From Rhodococcus sp. RD6.2 (GTDB lineage Bacteria; Actinomycetota; Actinomycetes; Mycobacteriales; Mycobacteriaceae): 64,000 nt of DNA. Positions 1 to 12,061 of the stretch are shown piece by piece. The position numbers and the translations under genes are program-made. The notes under the pieces are model-generated. The model searched no databases, was not told the origin of the DNA, and saw nothing but the letters and a program-made list of their open reading frames with translations. Positions within the stretch are counted from its first letter, which is position 1. Every line of letters starts with the position of its first letter. The DNA is taken from the NCBI RefSeq assembly GCF_001040705.1, contig NZ_CVQP01000005.1:331884-395883 (forward strand), written 5' to 3'.

Positions 1-276
1 CGGGAGCGGTCCGTTGTGAATGTTGAGCACCCGCAGTCCCGATTCGACGATCGGCGCCCGCAGGATCGTCGGATTGTTGACCGACCACACGACACCGTCG
101 GTGCACGTCGCCACCACCGCATCCGATGCGCTGTTCACGTCGGATCCGGTGAGCACTGGGACACCGTCCGGCACCGTCTCGTCCGGATCGGTCCACACCA
201 GGTCGATCCGATGCCCCGCGGCCTGCGCGCTGCGCACCGCTCGCCACAGCAGCGCGCCCCTGCCGATGAAGATCAC
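1..276 (-). CDS. Formyltransferase, LstF-like (partial, C-terminus beyond left edge)
   Basis: Only the first 92 codons are in the window; the gene continues past position 1. The start is a GTG whose last two bases are shared with the TGA of the upstream NRPS gene (GTGA overlap), so the two are translationally coupled. The visible protein opens with a Rossmann-like strand (MIFIGRGAL) and ends in NIHNGPLP, the hallmark stretch of the formyl_trans_N fold, where Asn and His bind formyl-tetrahydrofolate in methionyl-tRNA formyltransferase relatives. In lipstatin biosynthesis LstF N-formylates the aminoacyl side chain. Its position after an LstE-like NRPS suggests the same role here. The fold is well supported by the motif; the substrate is inferred from context. 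Confidence 0.8.
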   Translation of the reverse strand, partial: MIFIGRGALLWRAVRSAQAAGHRIDLVWTDPDETVPDGVPVLTGSDVNSASDAVVATCTDGVVWSVNNPTILRAPIVESGLRVLNIHNGPLP

Positions 277-3200
277 GGCGCCTCCACACCCTGGCGGGCC
301 GCGACCGCCGCCTCGACAACCCGTGCCAGCGTCATCTGCTGCACCAGGCCTTCCAGCCGCGCGACGAACCCGGCCTCACCGTCCGGACCGACCACGGTGC
401 GGGACACCTGCGCGAGCATCTCCAGCGAGGCGAGGGAGTCGCCGCCGAGCGCGAAGAAGTCGGAGGTCGGGGTGACCGACACAGGGTCGATGGACAGTAC
501 CGTCGCCCAGATCGCGGCGATTCGTTCCAGATCCTCGTCCGCAGCACCGTTTTCCGCGGTCTCCGAACCAGCGGGGACATCGGCGACCGGGCCCGGGTCA
601 CCCCCGGGCGACACGCAGTCCGCCTCGGCACCGGGAAGGCGGGACACGTCGAGCTTCCCGTTGTCGGTCAGCGGCAGTTCCTCCACCTGGCGGAAGTGGG
701 CGGGGACCATGTACGAGGGAAGCCGCTCCGCCAGGAACGCCCGCAGTGCCGTCTCGTCGAACCCGCCGGGTGCGACGACGTAGGCGTCGAGGACGCCGCC
801 GGTGTCCGTCCGCCTGCCGACCACCGCGGCGGCGCCGACCCCGGGACACCGTTCCAGCACCGCACGCACCTCGCCGGGCTCGACGCGGTTGCCCCGCACC
901 TTGACCTGTCCGTCGACGCGTCCGGCGAAGTCGAGGGCCCCGTCGGGAAGCAGACGCGCGAGATCACCCGTCCGGTAGGCACGTACACGGCCGGGGAGAT
1001 CCACGAACCGGTCCGCGGTCAGGTCCGGGCGACCGAGGTACCCGTCGGCCAGCTGAGGTCCGGCCAGGTACAGCTCGCCGACTGCACCCGCCGGCACCAG
1101 AGCGCCGTCGTCGTCGAGCAGGTACGCATCGGTGCCGGCAGTGGGCGTACCGATCGGAACCGTCCCCGCATCGGGGTCGGGGTCCACGGCGATCACGTGG
1201 GTGGTGCACACCACGCTCACCTCCGCGGGGCCGTAGCTGTTGAGCAACCGCACGTCGGGTCCGAAGAACTGCCGGGCCCGAGCCGCCAGCGCGGGCGAGA
1301 GCTGCTCGCCGCCGATGACGACGGTCCGCACCGCACCCGGATCCAGGCCGAGCCGCAGCACCACCTCGAGCAGGCTCGGTGTGAAAAGGAAGGTGTTCGC
1401 CCCGGATTCGCACAGCATGTGACGCAGCGACAGGTGCGAGGTGTCGTCGGGAACCAGGGTTACGGCGCCACCGGTCAACAACGGTGCGAAGAACGCGGCG
1501 CACGCCATGTCCGCGGCGGGAGTGTGGTGGTGCGCGAACCGGGTGTCCGGTCCGAGCCCGTACCAGTCGGTGACCCCGTCGACGAAGTGCACGACACCGG
1601 CGTGCGGGACGCGCACACCCTTGGGGCGCCCCGTCGACCCGGACGTGTAGGTGACGTACGCGAGGTCGTTCCCATCGAGCTCCACGCGCACCGGCTCCGG
1701 CGCGTCGGCCGGCAGATCGTCGAGCACCAGGACCGGAACGTCCGACGGCGCCGCGTCGACGCGATCACGCTCGGTGAGCAGCACCGCCGCACCCGAGTCG
1801 GCGACGATGCCCGCGCGGCGCTCCGCCGGATGCTTGGGGTCGAGAGCGAGGAACGCCGCCCCGGCGCGGAGCACCCCGAGTTGCGCCGCCACCGCGGCGA
1901 CGCTGCGACCGGCGAGGATCGCGACGATGTCTCCTCGGTCCACCCCGCGCTCGCGAAGAGCCGCGGCGATCGCGTCGGCGCGACGATCGAGCTCGCGGTA
2001 GGTGTACTCGCCGTCCGGGGAGCTCACCGCCACCGCGTCCGGCGTCGCGACCGCATGCTCCCGGAACCGGGAGTCGGCCGTGCCCGTGCTCGCCGCCGGG
2101 CCGCCCGACGCGGCGGGCGCGAGTACCCCGCCCGGCAGCTGCCCGTCGGAGGCCGTCAGCTCATCCGAGATCCGGTCGAGGACCGCCTCCAGCCGCTCAC
2201 CGACTCCGGCGCCGGCCCGACACGACACGGTGATCTCGGTCGTCCCGTCACATTCGAGGACGACGAACGACACGGGCACCAGCCCGGTGTGCACCGGGAC
2301 TGCACGTACGGCCGTGACACGGAATCCCGGCACGGACAGATCTGCGGTGGAGACCTGGCCCGCATGGGACACCAGGGCGGACACCACATTTCGATCCGCC
2401 TGGGCCCCGATCCGGTGTGCGCCGCGCAGCACGGTGCGGGCCACGGCCGCCGGAAGGTGTGCGAGCCCACCGTTGTCCATCTCGGCGAGCTCCCGCCGTT
2501 CCGTCATGCGGACGAGGATCCGCGCGTGCACCTGCGACCACGACTCACCGGGATCGACATCGAGGAACAGCGGCAGGGCCAGGTTCGCCGTCGAGCGCAG
2601 GGCAGGGTCGTGCCTGCGCAGGTCGACGGGAATCATCACCCGGATCTGCGACCCGACGACGTCGGCAAGCACGGCCGTGATCCGGGCGACCGATGCGGCG
2701 GCCGCGCCCGGGACGGTCCGATGCCGCCACAGGAACGGGCGATCCTTCGGCGGGCGTCCACTGGCCCCGAGCGGTGACCTGCGGGTCGGAACCAGCGTGG
2801 TCGGCTTGCCCCGCCGTCCGATCCGGGCGACGAGGTCGTGGTCCGCGGTCGGGTCGGCCGCACCGACCGGTTCCTCGCCGCGCAGGACGCGGAACACGTC
2901 CGCCGCCCACAGTGCCAGCCCGCGGGCATCCATCACTCCGTGGAACACGCGGAACACGACCGTGGACGTGTCGGCCCCGCTCACGAGCACCACTTCTGCG
3001 GTGCCGTCGCCGTCGGTGCCGAGATCGCGGGTGAGCACGGGATCGGTGTCCAGCGCGCCGAAGTCGATGCCGGCACCGCTCTGGACCGTGACGGGCGGGG
3101 TGACACCGGAGTCCACCCACCGGTCGCCGTCGCGGCGCAGCCGCGCGCCGGGGCAGGCGTCACTGGCGCGGGTCACCGCGTCGATCAGACGGGCGGCGTC

Positions 3201-3323
3201 CAGCACTCCCGAACCGGAGACGACGAGCTGGATTGCGAACGGCTCGGCGAGCGGCCGACCGGCGAGGTAGAGCCGTTCGGTGGCCGAGATCGGTCGTTCG
3301 AACCGATGGAGGGTGGAGGTCAC
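273..3323 (-). CDS. Single-module NRPS (condensation-like, adenylation, carrier), LstE-like
   Basis: 1016 residues from a GTG start with GAAGGG upstream; the open frame runs further but without coding sense. Residues 1-400 are condensation/acyltransferase-like, with H128xxxD132 in the form HGVMDARG rather than HHxxxDG. Residues 415-900 are an adenylation domain: TSGSTGRPKG (560-569), NSYGPAE (695-701), YRTGD (783-787) and NGKLD with Lys890. Asp605 falls where the amino-acid-binding Asp of alpha-amino-acid-activating domains is expected. A carrier domain follows with GGDS and its phosphopantetheine Ser963. There is no thioesterase or reductase domain. The likely job is to activate one amino acid and let the N-terminal domain transfer it to a hydroxyl of the beta-lactone lipid, as LstE does with leucine. 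The domain calls are firm; the amino acid cannot be read with certainty. Confidence 0.9.
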   Translation of the reverse strand: MTSTLHRFERPISATERLYLAGRPLAEPFAIQLVVSGSGVLDAARLIDAVTRASDACPGARLRRDGDRWVDSGVTPPVTVQSGAGIDFGALDTDPVLTRDLGTDGDGTAEVVLVSGADTSTVVFRVFHGVMDARGLALWAADVFRVLRGEEPVGAADPTADHDLVARIGRRGKPTTLVPTRRSPLGASGRPPKDRPFLWRHRTVPGAAAASVARITAVLADVVGSQIRVMIPVDLRRHDPALRSTANLALPLFLDVDPGESWSQVHARILVRMTERRELAEMDNGGLAHLPAAVARTVLRGAHRIGAQADRNVVSALVSHAGQVSTADLSVPGFRVTAVRAVPVHTGLVPVSFVVLECDGTTEITVSCRAGAGVGERLEAVLDRISDELTASDGQLPGGVLAPAASGGPAASTGTADSRFREHAVATPDAVAVSSPDGEYTYRELDRRADAIAAALRERGVDRGDIVAILAGRSVAAVAAQLGVLRAGAAFLALDPKHPAERRAGIVADSGAAVLLTERDRVDAAPSDVPVLVLDDLPADAPEPVRVELDGNDLAYVTYTSGSTGRPKGVRVPHAGVVHFVDGVTDWYGLGPDTRFAHHHTPAADMACAAFFAPLLTGGAVTLVPDDTSHLSLRHMLCESGANTFLFTPSLLEVVLRLGLDPGAVRTVVIGGEQLSPALAARARQFFGPDVRLLNSYGPAEVSVVCTTHVIAVDPDPDAGTVPIGTPTAGTDAYLLDDDGALVPAGAVGELYLAGPQLADGYLGRPDLTADRFVDLPGRVRAYRTGDLARLLPDGALDFAGRVDGQVKVRGNRVEPGEVRAVLERCPGVGAAAVVGRRTDTGGVLDAYVVAPGGFDETALRAFLAERLPSYMVPAHFRQVEELPLTDNGKLDVSRLPGAEADCVSPGGDPGPVADVPAGSETAENGAADEDLERIAAIWATVLSIDPVSVTPTSDFFALGGDSLASLEMLAQVSRTVVGPDGEAGFVARLEGLVQQMTLARVVEAAVAARQGVEAP

Positions 3324-3355
3324 GGCAGACCCTTCGTGGTGGGGGACGGCATGCA

Positions 3356-4396
3356 CTACTTGAGGTGACGGGTCAGGTCGGCGATGCCGCCCTGCTCCTC
3401 GACCCAGGAACGGAACTCCGCCATCCCGCTCTCCCGGTCGACGACGGGAACGTATCCGAAATCTGCTGCTGCAGCGGAGGTGTCGAACGTCGCGGACCGG
3501 GTCATCAACGCCAGCACGTACATCGACAGCGGCGGCGACCAGCGGGTCGCGAGGTAGGGGATCTTCCACACCGCGTCGAGAACCCGGACGACCGCGCCGA
3601 CGACCCGCAGATCGGGGGTGCGCTCGGCGATCCCGAATCCGAACTCGTGTGCCACCTCGGCCATGTAGGGCCAGATGTTCGTCACCTCGGCGTCGGCGAC
3701 GAAGTAGGCACGTCCACCCACCCGGTCCGATGCCGCGGCTTTCACGCACGCGTCGACGATGTTGTCGACGTGGCACAGCGACGCGAGCACGTCCCGGCCA
3801 CCGGAGAGGTTCGGCAACTTACCTGCCTGCGCACGTCCGAGCAGCCGCACGATCGGACCGGACCGGTCCCCCGGACCCCAGATCGCCCGCGGCCGCAGCG
3901 CACACGTGACGAATCCGTCGCCGTTCGCAGCCAGGACCTCCTGCTCGGCCGCGGCCTTCGTCTCGGAGTACAGGTTCAGGAAGCGCGTCGGGTACGGCAC
4001 GGATTCGTCGACCCCGATCAGGTCGCCGCCGTCGTAGTCCATCACCGCACTCGGACTGGAGACGAACACGAAGCGCTGGGCGCCGTTCTCACGCGCAGCA
4101 CGCAACAGAACCCGGGTGGCCTCGACGTTCTCCCGCTCGAACTGCGCTCGGACTCCACGCTCGTCGACCCGGGCCGCGCTGTGGACGACGATGTCGATCC
4201 CCCGGGTGGCCAGGGCGAGCGACTCGGGATCGTTCAGGTCGCCGTGCACGATCCGCATCGCCGACGTGTCACCGAGGTCGACGAGGCTGCTGGTGCGACG
4301 CACCAGGATGGAGACGTCGTGCTCGCCGTCGGCGACGAGCCTCCGTGCAAGGCGACCGCCGAGGAATCCGGAGGCACCGGTCACGAGCACCTTCAC
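3356..4396 (-). CDS. NAD(P)-dependent 3-beta-HSD/OleD-type reductase, LstD-like
   Basis: 346 residues from a GTG start with a strong GGAGAGGA ribosome site; the frame upstream of it overlaps the preceding gene and is not coding. It is an extended short-chain dehydrogenase: the nucleotide-binding motif TGASGFLGG begins at residue 6 and the catalytic pair is Tyr143 and Lys147 (YSETK), with Ser113/114 nearby. OleD and LstD reduce the 2-alkyl-3-keto acid made by the KAS-III enzymes to the beta-hydroxy acid that OleC-type enzymes close to a beta-lactone. It starts with a 4-base overlap on the small membrane-protein gene and sits 32 bases upstream of the NRPS, so it is in one operon with them. The family is clear; the substrate is inferred from the cluster. 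Confidence 0.9.
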   Translation of the reverse strand: MKVLVTGASGFLGGRLARRLVADGEHDVSILVRRTSSLVDLGDTSAMRIVHGDLNDPESLALATRGIDIVVHSAARVDERGVRAQFERENVEATRVLLRAARENGAQRFVFVSSPSAVMDYDGGDLIGVDESVPYPTRFLNLYSETKAAAEQEVLAANGDGFVTCALRPRAIWGPGDRSGPIVRLLGRAQAGKLPNLSGGRDVLASLCHVDNIVDACVKAAASDRVGGRAYFVADAEVTNIWPYMAEVAHEFGFGIAERTPDLRVVGAVVRVLDAVWKIPYLATRWSPPLSMYVLALMTRSATFDTSAAAADFGYVPVVDRESGMAEFRSWVEEQGGIADLTRHLK

Positions 4397-4677
4397 GGCG
4401 CATCCTCTCCTTCCGTGGTGGGTTGCGTTTTCCACCAGGTCATTCCGAACACCATCGTCAGGGCGGCGGTGGAGAGCGGCGACCGCGTTCCCCCCGCGGC
4501 GCGCAACGCCGCCGGGATCTGCGCGGCGTGCACGACGACGCTGAGGAAGGCGTCGAGCCACCAGGCACCGCGCGCCACACGGTGTCGGATCGGCCGACCC
4601 TTCGCCGCGACCATCAGCCCGTAGGCCAGATACAGCCACCCGAGGACGGGTATGGCACGGAGCGCCGCGGTCCTCAT
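4393..4677 (-). CDS. Small hydrophobic protein of unknown function inside the beta-lactone cluster
   Basis: 94 residues. The ATG overlaps the stop of the upstream OleC-like gene (ATGA), and its own stop overlaps the next start, so it is embedded in the operon. Three hydrophobic stretches are visible: residues 3-24 (IPVLGWLYLAYGLMVAA core), 39-58 (WWLDAFLSVVVHAA) and 67-82 (LSTAALTMVFGMTWW), separated by Arg-rich segments. This suggests a small integral membrane protein. I do not recognise the family. Lipstatin and Ole clusters as I know them have no gene at this position. Possible roles are membrane tethering of the pathway enzymes, export or self-protection, but none is shown by the sequence. 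Confidence 0.75.
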   Translation of the reverse strand: MRTAALRAIPVLGWLYLAYGLMVAAKGRPIRHRVARGAWWLDAFLSVVVHAAQIPAALRAAGGTRSPLSTAALTMVFGMTWWKTQPTTEGEDAP

Positions 4678-6353
4678 CGGCGCCACCGCCCCAGTCGAGA
4701 GCCGTCCAGTCGCCTGTCCGCCCACACCGAGAGCGACTCCCGGCCGATCTTCGCGTTGTGCCTGATGTCGACGGGGAAACCCGGATGAACCAGGAAGGTG
4801 TCGATCGTGTTCGTCAGGTCGAAATCTGCCCCGTGCGTCCGCAGGCGCGCGAGCACGGCCTCGGTGTCGGCACCGGATTCGACCTCGACACACACCACCG
4901 GACGCTGCTGTGTACGCGCGCCGACTCCGACGAGTGCCGTTCTCGCCACGCCGTCGACGGTGTTGAAGATCTGCTCCACCTGAACGGTGTGGAGTGTGCG
5001 TTCCCCGGTGACGATCCGCTGGGACTTGCGCCCGCAGAACCAGATCCGGCCCTCGTCGTCGATCCAGCCGATGTCGCCCGTGCGATGCCACACCCGCTCA
5101 CCGTCGACGATCTTCCCGAGCAGGTTGGCCGCGTCGGGCCAGTGGTACCGCGCGCTGACGTTCGGCCCGGTCACCACGATCTCACCGACACCGTCCGCCG
5201 GTTCCGCTGCCTCGCCCCACCCCGTGATGGGGTCGTCGGTGATCGCGACGAGCCGGACGTCGATTCCCTCGACGGGTCGTCCGATGCAGGTGCCCGCACC
5301 GCGCCTGGTCCCGTCCGCGAGTCCGGAAGCGACTTCCCTGGATTCGATCGACGACATCGGGATCGATTCGGTTGCACCGTATCCCGCGTGCACATCGGCG
5401 TCCTCGGACAGGATGCCGCGAAGACCGGTGATCACGGCCTCCGGGACGGGCGCACCGCCCGAGAACACCGCCCTGATCGACGGTAGCTGCACCTCGTGCT
5501 CGCGGCAGTACGCGAGCAGTGGCGCGAGCACCGCGGGCGACGCGAACAGCGTCCGCACGTCGAAACGGGTGACCGCGTCGACGACATGTGCGGGATCGGT
5601 GGAACCGACGCGGCTCGGAATCAGCGGCGGCAGAACGATACCCGTTCCGATCAGGAGATAGAGGACACCGAAGACGGGCAGGGTCACCAACGCCGTCTCG
5701 CGGTCGGTCGCACCCGTCAACGCCTGGGTACGCTCCAGCATGGCCGCGAGGTTGCCGTGGGTGAGTTCGACGGCCTTCGCCGGTCCGGTGGATCCGGTGG
5801 TGAACGCGATCATCGCCGGTGCGGACGCGTCGACCGGCGTCGTGAGGCCGGACGGGACACTCCCGTTCCGGACACGCCCGAACTCGGCCAGTGTGCGTCC
5901 GCCCCAGAACCAGCGGCGTCCGACCGTGACGGGCACCCGCACGCCGCGGAACGCGCGCCGGAACAGCACCCGCACCGCGTGCGCCTGCGGAATCCCCACG
6001 AAGGCCTGCGGATCCACCGCCGACAGGCACCGCAACATCGGGCGCAGGCCCATGCCCGGGTCGATCACCACGGGGATCGCACCGGCCTTGAACAGGCCGA
6101 ACAGGACCGCGTACAGCTCCGGCCCGGGATTGATCAGGACGATCGTGCGTGCGCCGCGTCCGATCCCTGACTCGGCGAACTTCCGGGCCAGGACGTCCGA
6201 CCACTCGGACAGTTCGGCGAACGAGATGCCCGTGTACTCGGGAAGCGCGCCTCGCGCGGCGGGTGCCGCGTAACTGACGGCGGGCGCGTCCGGGCGGCGC
6301 CGGGCATGGTCACCGACGGCGTCGAACCACGCCGTGCCGACCGATGCGCTCAC
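4674..6353 (-). CDS. OleC/LstC-like adenylate-forming enzyme (beta-lactone synthetase type)
   Basis: 559 residues. The start is a GTG overlapping the stop of the upstream KAS gene (GTGA). It belongs to the ANL superfamily: the phosphate-binding loop is TTGSTGPAKAV (185-195), with YGATE at 325-329, TGD at 425-427 and the hinge GRKSQR at 441-446. The C-terminal HNAKIGRE supplies the conserved lysine. OleC relatives adenylate a 2-alkyl-3-hydroxy acid and close it to a cis-beta-lactone without needing CoA. The loop has Lys-Ala-Val where CoA ligases usually have Lys-Gly-Val. Placement between KAS-III genes and an OleD-type reductase matches ole, nlt and lst clusters and makes lactone closure more likely than CoA ligation. 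That choice is inference from context. Confidence 0.88.
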   Translation of the reverse strand: MSASVGTAWFDAVGDHARRRPDAPAVSYAAPAARGALPEYTGISFAELSEWSDVLARKFAESGIGRGARTIVLINPGPELYAVLFGLFKAGAIPVVIDPGMGLRPMLRCLSAVDPQAFVGIPQAHAVRVLFRRAFRGVRVPVTVGRRWFWGGRTLAEFGRVRNGSVPSGLTTPVDASAPAMIAFTTGSTGPAKAVELTHGNLAAMLERTQALTGATDRETALVTLPVFGVLYLLIGTGIVLPPLIPSRVGSTDPAHVVDAVTRFDVRTLFASPAVLAPLLAYCREHEVQLPSIRAVFSGGAPVPEAVITGLRGILSEDADVHAGYGATESIPMSSIESREVASGLADGTRRGAGTCIGRPVEGIDVRLVAITDDPITGWGEAAEPADGVGEIVVTGPNVSARYHWPDAANLLGKIVDGERVWHRTGDIGWIDDEGRIWFCGRKSQRIVTGERTLHTVQVEQIFNTVDGVARTALVGVGARTQQRPVVCVEVESGADTEAVLARLRTHGADFDLTNTIDTFLVHPGFPVDIRHNAKIGRESLSVWADRRLDGSRLGRWRR

Positions 6354-7246
6354 CGAGTACCCGGTTCGGGAAGGCGATACAGGCACGCCGCCGCGCTCGG
6401 GCCCGCGCCTGCCGCCACCATGAGAACGGTCCGTACGCCGTCGAGTCGACCCGACTCGATCGCCCGGTGATAATCGAGCGGGATCGTCGCCGTGTGCACG
6501 TCGTCTGCGTTCTCGCCGTCCCAGTCGAGTTCGGGGACGCCGAGCTTCGCGGACAGCGCGGCACGGAACCCTGGGGTCGGCCGCGACGAGATCAGCACCG
6601 TGGTGGCCGGGTCGACGCCATCGGCCAGCGCGCGGGCGCCGACCGTCACGGCCACATCCAGGATGCGGCGTTCGGCATCGTCCGCCCGCAGCACGGTCAT
6701 CGCGGACCGGCCGGTGGTGCCCATCGTCGCGGTGTCGACGAAGCCTTCGACGGCGACCGGGCCATCCGCCAGTTCGGTGTGGAGCGGTCCGAAACCGTCC
6801 GGGCCGTCCACGTGTTCGAGGAGCAGGGCACCAGAGGCGGTCGCGTAGGGGAACTCCTCGGTCGGGTCGACGCCCGTCAGGGACGGGTGGGTGTCGCCGG
6901 CCACCACGAGGACCCGGCCCGTGCTACCCGTGACCAGGATCGCGGACGCGACCTGAACGGCGTTGAGCACCCCGCACGCCCCGTTCATCAGATCGAACGA
7001 GAACGACCGCGGGTCGTGTTCGTCGTACTCGAGGCCGATCCCCGCGGCCTTCTGGATCAACGCTCCCATTGCCGGCTCGACCATGTTCGAGTCGCGGTAG
7101 ATGCCCGCGTTGACGAGCACCCCCACCGACTCGGGCGCAGCGGCTGCCGCCGCGAGCGCGTCGCGAGCGGCGCGGGCGGCTCCGTCGACTGCGCTGATGT
7201 TCTCGGCGCCGCGAACGGCGCCCGTTGCGGTGATGACGACACCCAC
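6350..7246 (-). CDS. KAS-III-like protein with incomplete catalytic triad, LstB-like partner
   Basis: 298 residues, GTG start one base after the stop of the neighbouring KAS-III gene. The fold is ketoacyl synthase III: the nucleophile-elbow Cys91 lies in NGACGVLNAVQ. The His that normally follows is replaced (LISSRP at 219-223 aligns with IIHHQF of the partner), and the Asn position reads Asp (ENADDV near 245-250). It is also about 50 residues shorter than its partner. In lipstatin biosynthesis a LstA-LstB KAS-III heterodimer condenses two acyl-CoAs without decarboxylation, and LstB contributes a glutamate to the LstA active site. Glu57 (MVEPA) here is a candidate for that residue. The partnership is inferred from adjacency, coupling and the complementary active sites. 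Confidence 0.85.
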   Translation of the reverse strand: MGVVITATGAVRGAENISAVDGAARAARDALAAAAAAPESVGVLVNAGIYRDSNMVEPAMGALIQKAAGIGLEYDEHDPRSFSFDLMNGACGVLNAVQVASAILVTGSTGRVLVVAGDTHPSLTGVDPTEEFPYATASGALLLEHVDGPDGFGPLHTELADGPVAVEGFVDTATMGTTGRSAMTVLRADDAERRILDVAVTVGARALADGVDPATTVLISSRPTPGFRAALSAKLGVPELDWDGENADDVHTATIPLDYHRAIESGRLDGVRTVLMVAAGAGPSAAACLYRLPEPGTR

Positions 7247-7247
7247 G

Positions 7248-8297
7248 TCAGGCCTCCAGGGACGAGATGGTTGCGGACAGGAATCCCGTGACGATGCCGG
7301 ACGCCGCGGGGATCATCAGGACCTTCGAGCCCGCCGGTATCCGCTTCTGCTCGATCTGGTCGTGCAGGACGACGAAATGACTCGTGGTCGACGTGTTTCC
7401 GTACTTGTCGACGACGCCCGGGGAGTCGGGCATCGGGGTGCCGAACTCACGTTCTCCGAGGGCATTCATCGCGGTGATGGCGGAGGCACCGAACTGGTGG
7501 TGGATGATGAAGTCGAACTCCTCGTCGGCGAAGGTCCGACCCTGCGCGGCCAGGTGGTTGCGCTGAGTGTCGGTCCACAGCAGGAATCGACTCTCGTTGT
7601 GCATGCGCCGGTTGTCGGTGTACAGCGCCACGCCCTGGGTCCGGTCGGACGGCATGCCGAGGCAGGCGTCCGCGTATTCGGAGGCCGTCATCAACTCGAC
7701 GTAGTGGATCCGGTCGTCCTCTCCCTCGGATCGGTCGAGCACGACCGCCGCCCCGGAATCACCGACCGAGAGGGACGCGAACTGCGGGTTGTATCCCCCG
7801 ACGATCTCCTGGACCGCCGTCTCGGCGATCGGCGTGATCGCCTCACCACTGACGACCATGCCGTTGCGGACGGCACCTGCACGTATCATCCGGTCGAGTA
7901 GGTAAGTGCCGGTGAGCATTCCGGCACAGGCGTTGGACAGGTCGAAGTGGATCGCCCGGCGCGCGCCCAGGTCCTTGGCGATCATCGCCGCGAACGACGG
8001 TTCGAAGTAGATCTTGGACCGATCCTTGCTTCGGGTGATCGACACGGAGATGATCACGTCGAGATCGGCCGCCTCGTAGCGGGACCGGTCGAGGCAGGCC
8101 CGCGCGGCCTTCGACGCGAGCGCGAAGGAGTCCTCGAAGTCGTCGGGCGATGTCGAGCGCACTCGGCGTTCACGCACGCCGGTGACGGTCTCGAAATCGA
8201 ACGACGGCGGCTCGGCGAGCAGGCCGATCAGCTCGTCGGTGGTCTGGACGGTGCTCGGCAGATAGGCGCCGACGGCCTCGAATCGTGAGTGGATCAA
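7248..8297 (-). CDS. KAS-III/OleA-like condensing enzyme, LstA-like
   Basis: 349 residues. The start is TTG, chosen because GGAGGAG lies 8 bases upstream and the similarity to KAS-III begins at once (RFEAVGAYLP). The triad is complete: Cys124 (NACAGM), His267 (HHQFG) and Asn301 (YGNTS). OleA and LstA relatives join two fatty acyl groups head to head in a Claisen-type condensation, giving a 2-alkyl-3-keto acid. This is the first gene of the minus-strand cluster and sits next to the only non-coding stretch large enough for its promoter. A FabH-like malonyl-ACP condensing role is the alternative. The neighbouring OleC- and OleD-type genes argue against it. Confidence 0.9.
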   Translation of the reverse strand: MIHSRFEAVGAYLPSTVQTTDELIGLLAEPPSFDFETVTGVRERRVRSTSPDDFEDSFALASKAARACLDRSRYEAADLDVIISVSITRSKDRSKIYFEPSFAAMIAKDLGARRAIHFDLSNACAGMLTGTYLLDRMIRAGAVRNGMVVSGEAITPIAETAVQEIVGGYNPQFASLSVGDSGAAVVLDRSEGEDDRIHYVELMTASEYADACLGMPSDRTQGVALYTDNRRMHNESRFLLWTDTQRNHLAAQGRTFADEEFDFIIHHQFGASAITAMNALGEREFGTPMPDSPGVVDKYGNTSTTSHFVVLHDQIEQKRIPAGSKVLMIPAASGIVTGFLSATISSLEA

Positions 8298-8903: not shown

Positions 8904-10487
8904 TCAGATCAGGAAGTCCGCCGCGCGATCCGCGAGGTCGAGAACCGGCTGCGGGAAGACACCGAGCCCGACGGTCACGATCGCGCCCGCCGCGACCGAG
9001 ACGGTCGTGAGCGCACTCGGAATCACGACGTCAGGCGCGACCTCGGGAGGATCGGAGAAGAACATCAGCACGATCACACGCACGTAGAAGAAGGCAGCGA
9101 TCGCGCTGCACACCACGCCGACGACGACCAGGGGCCACCCGCCGGCACCGGCCGCAGCCGAGAAGACCGCGAACTTTCCGACGAACCCCGCGGTCAACGG
9201 GATACCGGCGAACGACAGCAGCAGCAGCGCGAAGGTCCCGGCGAGCAGCGGCGACCGACGCCCGAGCCCCGCCCAGTGCGACAGGTGCGTCGCCTCCCCG
9301 GTCGGGCCGCGCACCAGCCCGACGATCGCGAACGCGGCCACCGTCCCGAAGCCGTACGCGACAAGGTAGAACAGCGTCGACGACAGACCGGCCCGATCCG
9401 CCGCGACGACGCCGACGAGTATGAACCCGGCATGCGCGACAGAGGAATACGCCAGCATTCGCTTGACGTCGGTCTGGGTCACGGCGAGCACGGACCCGAA
9501 CACCATCGTCAGGATCGCCACCACCCACAGCAGGGGACGCCAGTCGTCCCGCAGCCCCGGCACCCCGACGTAGAGGACGCGCAGCATCGCACCGAACGCC
9601 GCGATCTTCGTGGCAGCGGCCATGAATGCGGTGATCGGTGTCGGGGCCCCCTGGTAGACGTCGGGTACCCAGGTGTGGAACGGCACGGCACCGACCTTGA
9701 ACAGGAGGCCCACCGCGAGCAGTCCGGTGCCGATCAGGGCGAACGTGGTCCCTCCGGACGCCGTGGCCTCCGCGATGCCCACGAGCTGGACCGTCCCGGC
9801 CTCGCCGTACAGGAAGGCGACACCGAACAGGAAGAACGCCGACGAGAAGGCACCGAGCAGGAAGTACTTCAGGGCCGCTTCCTGCGACAGCACCCGCTGC
9901 CTGCGGGCGAGGCCGCACAGCAGGTACAGCGGCAGCGACAGCACCTCGAGGGCCACGAACATCGTCAACAGGTCCCCGGACGCCGGGAACAGCAACATCC
10001 CGCCGACCGCGAACAGGGTCAGCGGGAACACCTCTGTTCGCGTCACCCCAGCCGCGGTCGCTTCCTTCTCCGCGACACTGCCGGGCAGCACGGACGCCTG
10101 GGGCGTGAACGCATCCGCGGCCTGGTCCCGTGCCGCGACCCGATCGAGGCGACGCTCGGCGATCAGCAGGATCGACAGGATGGACACCAGCAGGATCGAC
10201 CCCTGCAGGAACAGCGTCGGCCCGTCGACGACCACCGCGCCCGCCACCGCGGTGCCACGGGTGTCACGCAGCGCCACGACCGCGACGAAGGCGGCGCCCA
10301 ATCCGCCGAGCGAGAGTACGAGATGACTGCCGTACCGGACGCGGGCCGGGGCGAACGCCTCCACGATCACCCCGGCCACCGCGACACCGAACACGAGGAG
10401 CATCGGCATGAGCAGGCTGTACTCGATGTCGGGTGCGGGCAGCGGGGACTGTGCGAGGACGGCGGCGGCTGTCGAGAACCTGCTCAC
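8904..10487 (-). CDS. nuoN: NADH-quinone oxidoreductase subunit N
   Basis: 527 residues, all hydrophobic, with the pattern of about 14 membrane helices of the antiporter-like subunits of complex I. Recognisable stretches include LEVLSLPLYLLCG, KVGAVPFHTWVPDVYQGAP (with the conserved Lys and Pro of the discontinuous helix) and DVKRMLAYSSVAHAG. It carries out proton translocation in the membrane arm. The GTG start overlaps the nuoM stop by four bases. It is the last gene of the nuo operon. Confidence 0.97.
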   Translation of the reverse strand: MSRFSTAAAVLAQSPLPAPDIEYSLLMPMLLVFGVAVAGVIVEAFAPARVRYGSHLVLSLGGLGAAFVAVVALRDTRGTAVAGAVVVDGPTLFLQGSILLVSILSILLIAERRLDRVAARDQAADAFTPQASVLPGSVAEKEATAAGVTRTEVFPLTLFAVGGMLLFPASGDLLTMFVALEVLSLPLYLLCGLARRQRVLSQEAALKYFLLGAFSSAFFLFGVAFLYGEAGTVQLVGIAEATASGGTTFALIGTGLLAVGLLFKVGAVPFHTWVPDVYQGAPTPITAFMAAATKIAAFGAMLRVLYVGVPGLRDDWRPLLWVVAILTMVFGSVLAVTQTDVKRMLAYSSVAHAGFILVGVVAADRAGLSSTLFYLVAYGFGTVAAFAIVGLVRGPTGEATHLSHWAGLGRRSPLLAGTFALLLLSFAGIPLTAGFVGKFAVFSAAAGAGGWPLVVVGVVCSAIAAFFYVRVIVLMFFSDPPEVAPDVVIPSALTTVSVAAGAIVTVGLGVFPQPVLDLADRAADFLI

Positions 10488-12061
10488 GGGTGACCGCCTC
10501 CGTCTTCCGCTTCGATGACCGGGACCGTCGGTGCCGGATCCTCCTGGTGCACCGCCGTCAGCGTCGCGTCGACGGCCGGGGTGATCGCGTCGAGCGCCGG
10601 CTTCGGGTAGACGCCGAGGATCACCAGCAGGGCGATCAGCGGTGCCACCACCGCGATCTCGCGGCGACCGAGGTCGCGCACACCCTCACGGGCCGGTCCG
10701 GTCATCACCCGCTGGTACATCCACAGCACGTACACCGCCGAGAGCACCAGTGCCGTGGTCGCTGCGATCGCAGCGACCGGATAGCGGGTGAACGTGCCGA
10801 TCAGGACGAGGAATTCGCTGACGAACGGCGCCAGCCCCGGTAGGGACAGCGTGGCGAGACCGGCGACGAGGAACGTCCCCGCCAGGACCGGGGCGCTGGA
10901 CTGCACGCCGCCGTAGTCGGCGATCGCACGGGACCCCTTGCGAGCGACGAGGAATCCGGCGAGGAGCATGAGCGCGGCGGTGGACAGTCCGTGGTTCACC
11001 ATGTATAGCGCGGACCCGCCCTGCGCCTGGCTGGTGAGGGCGAAGATGCCGAGCACGATGAACCCGAAGTGGGAGATGGACGTGTACGCGATCAGCCGCA
11101 TCATGTCGGTCTGACCGATCGCGACGAGCGCGCCGTAGACGATGCCGACGACGGCGAGGGTGATGACGAGCGGAGCGAAGGTTCTGGTGGCGTCCGGGAA
11201 CAGTTCGATGCAGTACCGCAGCATCCCGAACGTGCCGACCTTGTCGACCACGGCCATCATGAGCACCGCGGTCGACGGGGTCGAGTGGACGGCGGCGTCG
11301 GGCAGCCAGGTGTGCAGCGGCCACAGCGGAGCCTTGACGGCGAACGCGAACATGAAACCGAGGAACAGGGCGTTCGCGACGGGCGTGTCGATCACCAGCG
11401 TGCCGGACGAGACGGCGTCCGCGATGGCCCGGAAATCGAAGGTGCCGGACTCGAACGGGCTCGCGTCCCCCGCGGTGACCGTGTACAGGCCGATCACCGC
11501 GGCCAGCATGATCAGTCCGCCGAACAGGTTGTACAGCAGGAACTTCACAGCGGCGCGGGGGCCACGCGCGTCGCCGAAGCTGCCGATGAGGAAGTACATC
11601 GGAATCAGCATCGCCTCGAAGAACACGTAGAACAGGAGGATGTCGAGGGAGAGAAACGACATCAGCACCATCGCCTCGACCACGAGGACGAGCGAGACGT
11701 ACGCGTGGACCGGTCTCGTCCCCGTCGCCCGATCACCGTCACGCCAGCCCGCGAGCAGCAGGACCGGCACCAGGACGGCGGTGAGCAACACCAACACCAG
11801 CGCGACGCCGTCCACGCCCAGTTCGTAGCGGGTGCCGAACGCCGGTATCCAGGAATGTGATTCGACGAACTGGAAGCGCTCCCCACCCGGATCGAATCCC
11901 ACCGCGACCACCACGGCAACGGCGAGCGTCACCAGCGACGCCGCGAACGCAACCCACCGCGCGGCAACGCGCCCAGCCGCGGGCACACAGGCCACGGCAC
12001 CCGCCCCGACGAGAGGCGCCAACCACAACGCGCTCAACCATGCGAAGCCGTCCACGCTCAC
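10484..12061 (-). CDS. nuoM: NADH-quinone oxidoreductase subunit M
   Basis: 525 residues with about 14 membrane helices. Family signatures are visible: [17 protein letters not shown] (the conserved Glu of helix 5), [29 protein letters not shown] (Lys and Pro of the proton channel) and [15 protein letters not shown]. It is the second antiporter-like proton-pumping subunit of complex I. The GTG start overlaps the nuoL stop by four bases, and the stop overlaps the nuoN start. Confidence 0.97.

Follow-up and report, generated by a model that had tools for sequence, protein, structure and literature searches.

Lipstatin is a lipase inhibitor and the source of the drug tetrahydrolipstatin. It is made by Streptomyces toxytricini through the lst cluster, whose gene list beyond LstA and LstB (lstC-lstF) is assumed here. 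Two other described systems resemble it in part, the nlt cluster of Nocardia for nocardiolactone and the oleABCD cluster of Xanthomonas and Micrococcus for olefins. In this work an eight-gene minus-strand operon of Rhodococcus sp. RD6.2 (genome of 5.57 Mb) is compared with the three. The window, meaning the whole stretch of 64,000 nucleotides that was analysed, begins within this operon at G000:C5:331884. By gene content, gene order, key residues, phylogeny and conservation the operon is probably of the lipstatin type and equipped with an MmpL exporter (probability roughly 0.83), and its predicted product is an N-formyl aminoacyl ester of a dialkyl beta-lactone.

In its passages on LstA and LstB, a review of heteromeric enzymes (PMC12141560) gives an identity of 23% between the two proteins and lists C128, H271 and N305 of LstA and E60 of LstB as required either for activity or for solubility of the complex. 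LstB counterparts are described there as widespread, always together with LstA and perhaps for other lipstatin-like compounds, so the lipstatin-type kind was foreseen in print. Lipstatin relatives vary in their amino acid, the panclicins carrying Ala or Gly according to a passage of PMC7449042. Excerpts of PMC7413640 present the nocardiolactone clusters of Nocardia as a group of 36, of which antiSMASH labelled six lipstatin-type, and in excerpts of the mBio paper on OleA (PMC7064751) oleACD clusters lacking oleB are interpreted as producing beta-lactones. Beta-lactone clusters are also mentioned in two Rhodococcus genome papers, with no detail in the passages concerned (PMC11354180, PMC12671745). 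A term search of two genus-wide Rhodococcus surveys (PMC5550956, PMC11433410) found neither lipstatin nor lactone in the text covered. Among titles and abstract openings on lipstatin or beta-lactone with Rhodococcus, and on MmpL with beta-lactone and Nocardia, no report of the cluster was identified, subscription literature being mostly outside this scope.

The operon shares with lst a ketoacyl synthase III (KAS-III) pair having the same triad spacing and Glu, OleC, OleD, a nonribosomal peptide synthetase (NRPS) and a formyltransferase. Gene order was likened to lst by way of Streptomyces clusters whose KAS-III residues have the numbers published for LstA and LstB, and not from the S. toxytricini record itself. 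Differences from lst are the division of OleC and its membrane domain into two genes, the MmpL exporter and another adenylation code. With nlt the operon shares KasA, KasB, OleC, the membrane protein (in 54 of 71 Nocardia loci), OleD, the acyltransferase and MmpL, in the same order, whereas the adenylation and carrier domains (A-PCP) and the formyltransferase of RD6.2 were not found in the Nocardia loci. OleA-, OleC- and OleD-type enzymes are common to oleABCD; RD6.2 differs in the KAS-III pair, the lack of oleB in the operon and the addition of NRPS and formyltransferase.

Operon layout, KAS-III pair and predicted lactone synthetase

The features of the operon are collected in Table 1. The seven junctions of the eight-gene run comprise five 4-base overlaps, a 1-base gap (KasA-KasB) and a 32-base gap (OleD-NRPS); the overlap of the MMPL gene with the formyltransferase stop, one of the 4-base ones, lies past the window edge. 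One coupled transcript is plausible, since the genes overlap or sit within 1-32 bases. The initial annotation had described such a coupled unit of KAS-III pair, OleC, OleD, a C-A-T NRPS and formyltransferase. The genes and their tight junctions on the minus strand agree with it; the C-A-T label does not hold, no condensation (C) domain being recognisable.

Table 1. Features of the RD6.2 operon. Positions are those of the window unless prefixed by locus L009.
Feature	Position	Strand	Remarks
KasA, LstA-like KAS-III, 349 aa	7248..8297	-	ACP_syn_III; triad C124, H267, N301
KasB, LstB-like KAS-III partner, 298 aa	6350..7246	-	without Cys at the OleA Cys position; E57 retained
OleC/LstC-like predicted beta-lactone synthetase, 559 aa	4674..6353	-	GTG start at 6353; frame open to 6386; tree
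94-aa membrane protein	4393..4677	-	homologous to Streptomyces OleC C-terminal domain; two hydrophobic segments
OleD/LstD-like NAD(P)-dependent reductase, 346 aa	3356..4396	-	3Beta_HSD and sub-cut-off OleD models
NRPS gene, whole	273..3323	-	N-terminal domain, adenylation and carrier
NRPS N-terminal acyltransferase-type domain	2124..3323	-	invariant HxxxD (H128, D132); separate gene in Nocardia
NRPS adenylation and carrier domains	273..2123	-	code DMALVGSVVK by motif; LGGDSL carrier motif; A-PCP tree
N-formyltransferase, 226 aa, first 92 aa in window	1..276, remainder L009:15479-15883	-	Formyl_trans_N
MMPL-family transporter, 710 aa, outside window	L009:13350-15482	same run	eighth gene, after formyltransferase

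In Pfam KasA matches ACP_syn_III, and KasB matches the same two families slightly under the cut-offs. The KasA triad is invariant in all nine aligned rows, and its spacings of 143 and 34 are those of LstA (C128/H271/N305). At the position of the OleA cysteine the KasB rows have A or P, and E57, which all 8 rows share, aligns to the catalytic Glu of LstB (E60). KasA and KasB are 25% identical. This is the adjacent pair with C-H-N triad and catalytic Glu position by which lipstatin-type clusters are recognised. A KasB profile search of the class identified 16 of 394 genomes at E <= 1e-15, 14 in the family of RD6.2 and 2 in group g93 (the Streptomyces group hereafter); in g93 it identified 13 of 295 genomes at E <= 1e-20. 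Within the genus KasB is present in all six genomes that the search covered, RD6.2 being one of them, and the other five hold the cluster.

Both the OleC-like and the OleD-like gene of a lipstatin-type cluster are in the operon. OleC matches AMP-binding and, at 588 bits against a cut-off of 478, NCBIfam PRK09274. The tree of OleC (45 rows) comprises 8 Rhodococcus rows (R. oryzae and L063 left out), 13 Nocardia rows chosen from 69 loci with an OleC match, 10 Streptomyces-group rows and 14 outgroup rows. Rhodococcus, Nocardia and the Streptomyces group form one clade (100/99) apart from the outgroup, within which Rhodococcus and Nocardia are joined at 100/100. A position of OleC outside the Ole/Lst/Nlt clades had been named beforehand as grounds for giving up the beta-lactone interpretation; OleC lies within the Lst/Nlt clade, and no refutation arises. 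The KAS-III genes were placed only within a tree of four joined genes, without an outgroup.

For the 94-aa membrane protein the family scans gave no family above cut-off. In all ten Streptomyces-group loci the C-terminal part of the OleC frame is homologous to it, and the same fusion was identified in S. globosus LZH-48 and Streptomyces sp. NBC_01006. The alignment of the 94-aa protein with the Streptomyces domain has in common the core WxDxxLS...H..Q and a terminal TW. All 63 distinct clean loci of Rhodococcus and Nocardia in which both OleC and the membrane protein were found have the latter as a separate gene, a count drawn from 93 OleC rows (six genomes twice) through 64 distinct mycolic-acid rows with separate genes, L085 being excluded. 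The same rows include 13 without a membrane-protein match and 10 fused ones, all of the Streptomyces group. The protein went undetected in 11 of the 65 Nocardia loci extending past OleD. The initial annotation had seen here the lstA-F gene set plus one small membrane protein; content, order, residues and phylogeny sustain the gene set, but the membrane protein is part of it and not an addition, because it is fused to OleC in Streptomyces. It may be a membrane anchor for the lactone synthetase.

NRPS, formyltransferase and putative exporter

The NRPS matches AMP-binding and PP-binding in Pfam; its first 401 aa matched nothing in Pfam at E up to 5, the HMMER filters dropping most matches above ~0.1. 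A condensation domain was considered for this N-terminus and rejected: it has no Pfam match, none was found among 13 members, and a PDB profile search returned one noise hit. The HxxxD of the domain is invariant in 13 of 13 aligned rows, and one of the 13 members weakly matches TIGR02946 (wax ester synthase/diacylglycerol acyltransferase, WS/DGAT) at 7e-4. In hhalign the domain aligned weakly, over its full length, with WS/DGAT proteins of its own genome (probability 20%, E 0.0011, one comparison), and with the condensation domains of the genome at E 0.044, so that the comparison leans to WS/DGAT, negative controls giving 0.29-0.32. The yardstick comparison of WS/DGAT with condensation domains reached 69% and 4.4e-5, and by this lower E the kinship of the N-terminal domain with WS/DGAT is weaker than that of WS/DGAT with condensation domains. 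The domain is homologous to that of the Streptomyces group (38-47% identity), outside any curated family, and in Nocardia the same acyltransferase domain is a gene of its own of ~395 aa. Perhaps it is an O-acyltransferase-type domain, similar to WS/DGAT.

The tree of A-PCP comprises 69 rows, second genome copies, R. oryzae, fragment L159 and outgroup matches under ~450 aa being left out. Eight Rhodococcus rows, nine lst rows of the Streptomyces group and the g93 rows L197 and L200 share one side of a 100/100 branch; the other side is formed by 50 other NRPS modules, seven from the RD6.2 genome. The adenylation and carrier domains are those of the lst lineage, as in a lipstatin-type cluster. 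Recruitment of the NRPS from other NRPS genes of the genome, also considered, was rejected by this tree. The RD6.2 genome is rich in NRPS, with 48 matches to the Condensation domain (E <= 1e-20) in frames of up to 14568 aa.

Adenylation codes were read by motif. The RD6.2 code is DMALVGSVVK; DMALIGSIVK was identified on the R. qingshengii and H-CA8f plasmids, and DMAMSGSIVK in R. maanshanensis, R. oryzae and R. spelaei. On the Streptomyces side the codes are DIFALGGVAK in S. globosus, DLTKVGEIGK in L174 and L175, and DLMGQGIVAK in L158, L172 and L173. In a lipstatin-type cluster the adenylation domain would be expected to activate leucine; the RD6.2 code differs from every Streptomyces code seen, including that of S. 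globosus, whose KAS-III residues match the lst numbers. Since lipstatin relatives differ in their amino acid, a differing amino acid in the Rhodococcus product is plausible.

The formyltransferase matches Formyl_trans_N and keeps NxH...D, which we take to be the formyltransferase motif; lipstatin-type clusters have such a gene. In one lst-type cluster of the Streptomyces group a GNAT acetyltransferase occupies its place (L175:1720-2397), which fits a role of the slot in N-acylation. The code of L174 and L175 presumably resembles Asn codes, and in L175 the GNAT together with an Asn-like code would, we assume, fit an N-acetyl-Asn product such as esterastin.

Seven of the 9 Rhodococcus loci and 60 of the 71 from Nocardia have an MMPL gene next to the cluster. 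The ten Streptomyces-group loci gave no MMPL match better than E 0.34, eight of them extending only ~1.7-2.3 kb past the formyltransferase/GNAT place. The R. qingshengii TG-1 plasmid has an annotated chloramphenicol efflux gene, cmrA, ~1.2 kb beyond the MMPL gene there (L268:24020-25047). In RD6.2 an alpha/beta hydrolase (Abhydrolase_3) is found on the opposite strand ~3 kb beyond the MMPL gene (L009:9554-10474). Upstream of the operon, at window positions 8904-12061, lie NADH:quinone oxidoreductase/Mrp antiporter-type genes, two of which were scanned, perhaps a nuo operon; among the loci searched this neighbour occurs elsewhere only in R. triatomae (L046/L060).

Related loci in Streptomyces, Rhodococcus and Nocardia

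The loci compared are the best 80 from 147 relatives and comprise 9 from Rhodococcus, including R. triatomae, R. tukisamuensis, R. spelaei, R. maanshanensis and R. oryzae, and 71 from Nocardia. The acyltransferase was identified in all nine Rhodococcus loci, A-PCP in eight and the formyltransferase in seven, L063 being cut by a contig end. The eight-gene set, including an annotated MMPL gene, is also present on two Rhodococcus plasmids (592 and 302 kb), so the cluster can be plasmid-borne.

The ten loci of the Streptomyces group all contain KasA, KasB, OleC, the membrane domain, OleD, the acyltransferase domain and A-PCP in the RD6.2 order. The formyltransferase was matched in seven; of the others, L159 is a 6.8-kb fragment, L178 ends in the NRPS and L175 has the GNAT. 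Group g93 is taken as Streptomyces; five named Streptomyces plasmids carry a KasA homologue with 56-60% identity, and the two of these that were read both hold the cluster. S. globosus LZH-48 (L267) has C128, H271, N305 and E60 by record annotation, the published LstA/LstB numbers, and in Streptomyces sp. NBC_01006 the numbers are shifted to C134, H277, N311 and E59. L175 and L178 also match the published numbers, given the start codons chosen in the analysis, on which the residue numbers of L175, L176 and L178 depend. Protein identity of RD6.2 to S. globosus and Streptomyces sp. NBC_01006 is 43-60%. Since gene set and order recur in other genera, a chance grouping is excluded.

In Nocardia the acyltransferase was identified in 65 of 71 loci; the six without it are also without OleD and end too soon. 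Neither A-PCP nor formyltransferase was found in any of the 71 loci, and 65 of these extend beyond OleD and include the acyltransferase. Outside these loci a genome might yet contain an A-PCP of the lst type. A sub-threshold A-PCP match (85 bits) was obtained in L100, and the A-PCP search of G065 (N. cyriacigeorgica) gave a best E of 2e-80, the level of an ordinary NRPS, matches within Rhodococcus being at 1e-171 or better. The assignment of these loci to the nlt cluster rests on genus (N. brasiliensis L068 included) and gene content.

According to passages of PMC7413640 Nocardia makes nocardiolactone, and its loci share the core of the RD6.2 operon with the acyltransferase alone. RD6.2 might likewise produce a plain dialkyl beta-lactone, its NRPS and formyltransferase acting elsewhere or being leftovers. 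However, a nocardiolactone-type core would be without A-PCP and formyltransferase, and RD6.2 has both, in intact frames that overlap by 4 bases and keep their motifs; most other Rhodococcus loci keep them as well, in the numbers given above. A nocardiolactone-type pathway in RD6.2 is considered improbable.

The tree of the acyltransferase (without L159 and L178) separates Rhodococcus and Nocardia from Streptomyces at 100/100. The OleC tree places Nocardia inside Rhodococcus with 94/75 only, and the four-gene tree supports the node at just 10.5/44. Because Streptomyces and both Rhodococcus branches have A-PCP, its loss in Nocardia would be the simplest account, by parsimony with Streptomyces outside.

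Two further arrangements were identified. In L059 (4209-9629; also L058, 8836-12801, minus strand) a protein of 1806 aa comprises Condensation, AMP-binding, carrier and two KAS-III domains, that is, an NRPS fused to a KasA-KasB pair, with an OleD-like gene next; the group of these loci (g2) is probably Mycobacterium. The Nocardia-group genome G219 has a second KasA-KasB pair by an AMP-binding gene 27% like the RD6.2 OleC (L052:8935-10859).

Proposed pathway and significance

In the pathway proposed for the lipstatin-type operon, a KasA-KasB heterodimer would condense two fatty acyl-CoAs into an alpha-branched beta-keto acid in a non-decarboxylating reaction, OleD would reduce the ketone, and OleC with its membrane subunit would close the beta-lactone via acyl-AMP. 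The adenylation domain would load an alpha-amino acid onto the carrier domain, the N-terminal acyltransferase-type domain would transfer it to the chain hydroxyl as an ester, the formyltransferase would N-formylate it and the MmpL protein would export the lipid. All of these reactions, as well as the amino acid, the chain lengths, the role of the membrane subunit and the export, are predictions. The initial annotation had also suggested that the chains could be unusually long or derived from wall lipids, for which the analysis yielded no evidence.

Several points weigh against this proposal. Its support comes from genes and not from chemistry, and a 3-hydroxyacyl-CoA substrate, the source of the ester hydroxyl, is assumed. 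OleC is under both olefin beta-lactone synthetase cut-offs, scoring 500 bits for the one set at 900, a cut-off reached in none of 296 genomes of the class. The N-terminal domain is without a family match above cut-off and its kinship with WS/DGAT is weak. Finally, the R. spelaei locus (L110) has A-PCP without a formyltransferase or MMPL match.

The amino acid could end as an amide or as a free N-formyl lipoamino acid instead of an ester on a beta-lactone lipid, as the curated cut-offs place the N-terminal domain in no recognised ester-forming family. The same fused gene is nevertheless found in Streptomyces clusters with lipstatin-matching KAS-III residue numbers, and the best weak matches of the domain are O-acyltransferases, which makes such an outcome very improbable. 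An olefin pathway, in which the beta-lactone intermediate would be decarboxylated to a long-chain alkene, has OleA-, OleC- and OleD-type genes in its favour but is very improbable, as no OleB-like gene is among the scanned operon genes or neighbours (a genome-wide OleB search was not made), OleC groups with Lst/Nlt rows apart from other actinobacterial OleC rows, and passages of PMC7064751 interpret clusters without oleB as beta-lactone producers.

With the lipstatin-type reading preferred, a broader and tentative scenario, rather doubtful as a whole, can be drawn for mycolic-acid bacteria. The lipstatin pathway may have turned there into an envelope-lipid pathway, MmpL carrying the acylated beta-lactone to the outer layer and the lactone acting there on serine hydrolases of the cell itself or of its neighbours. 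Rhodococcus would add the N-formyl amino acid; Nocardia would have lost A-PCP and formyltransferase, the left-over domain adding a plain acyl group, and nocardiolactone-type clusters would derive from lipstatin-type ones.

The Nocardia clusters appear to encode a shortened form of this pathway, and a prediction is that their products bear an acyl ester. A membrane domain without a name accompanies the lactone synthetase in Streptomyces, Rhodococcus and most Nocardia loci read. The operon of RD6.2 would extend lipstatin-type chemistry to Rhodococcus, possibly with another amino acid and a dedicated exporter.

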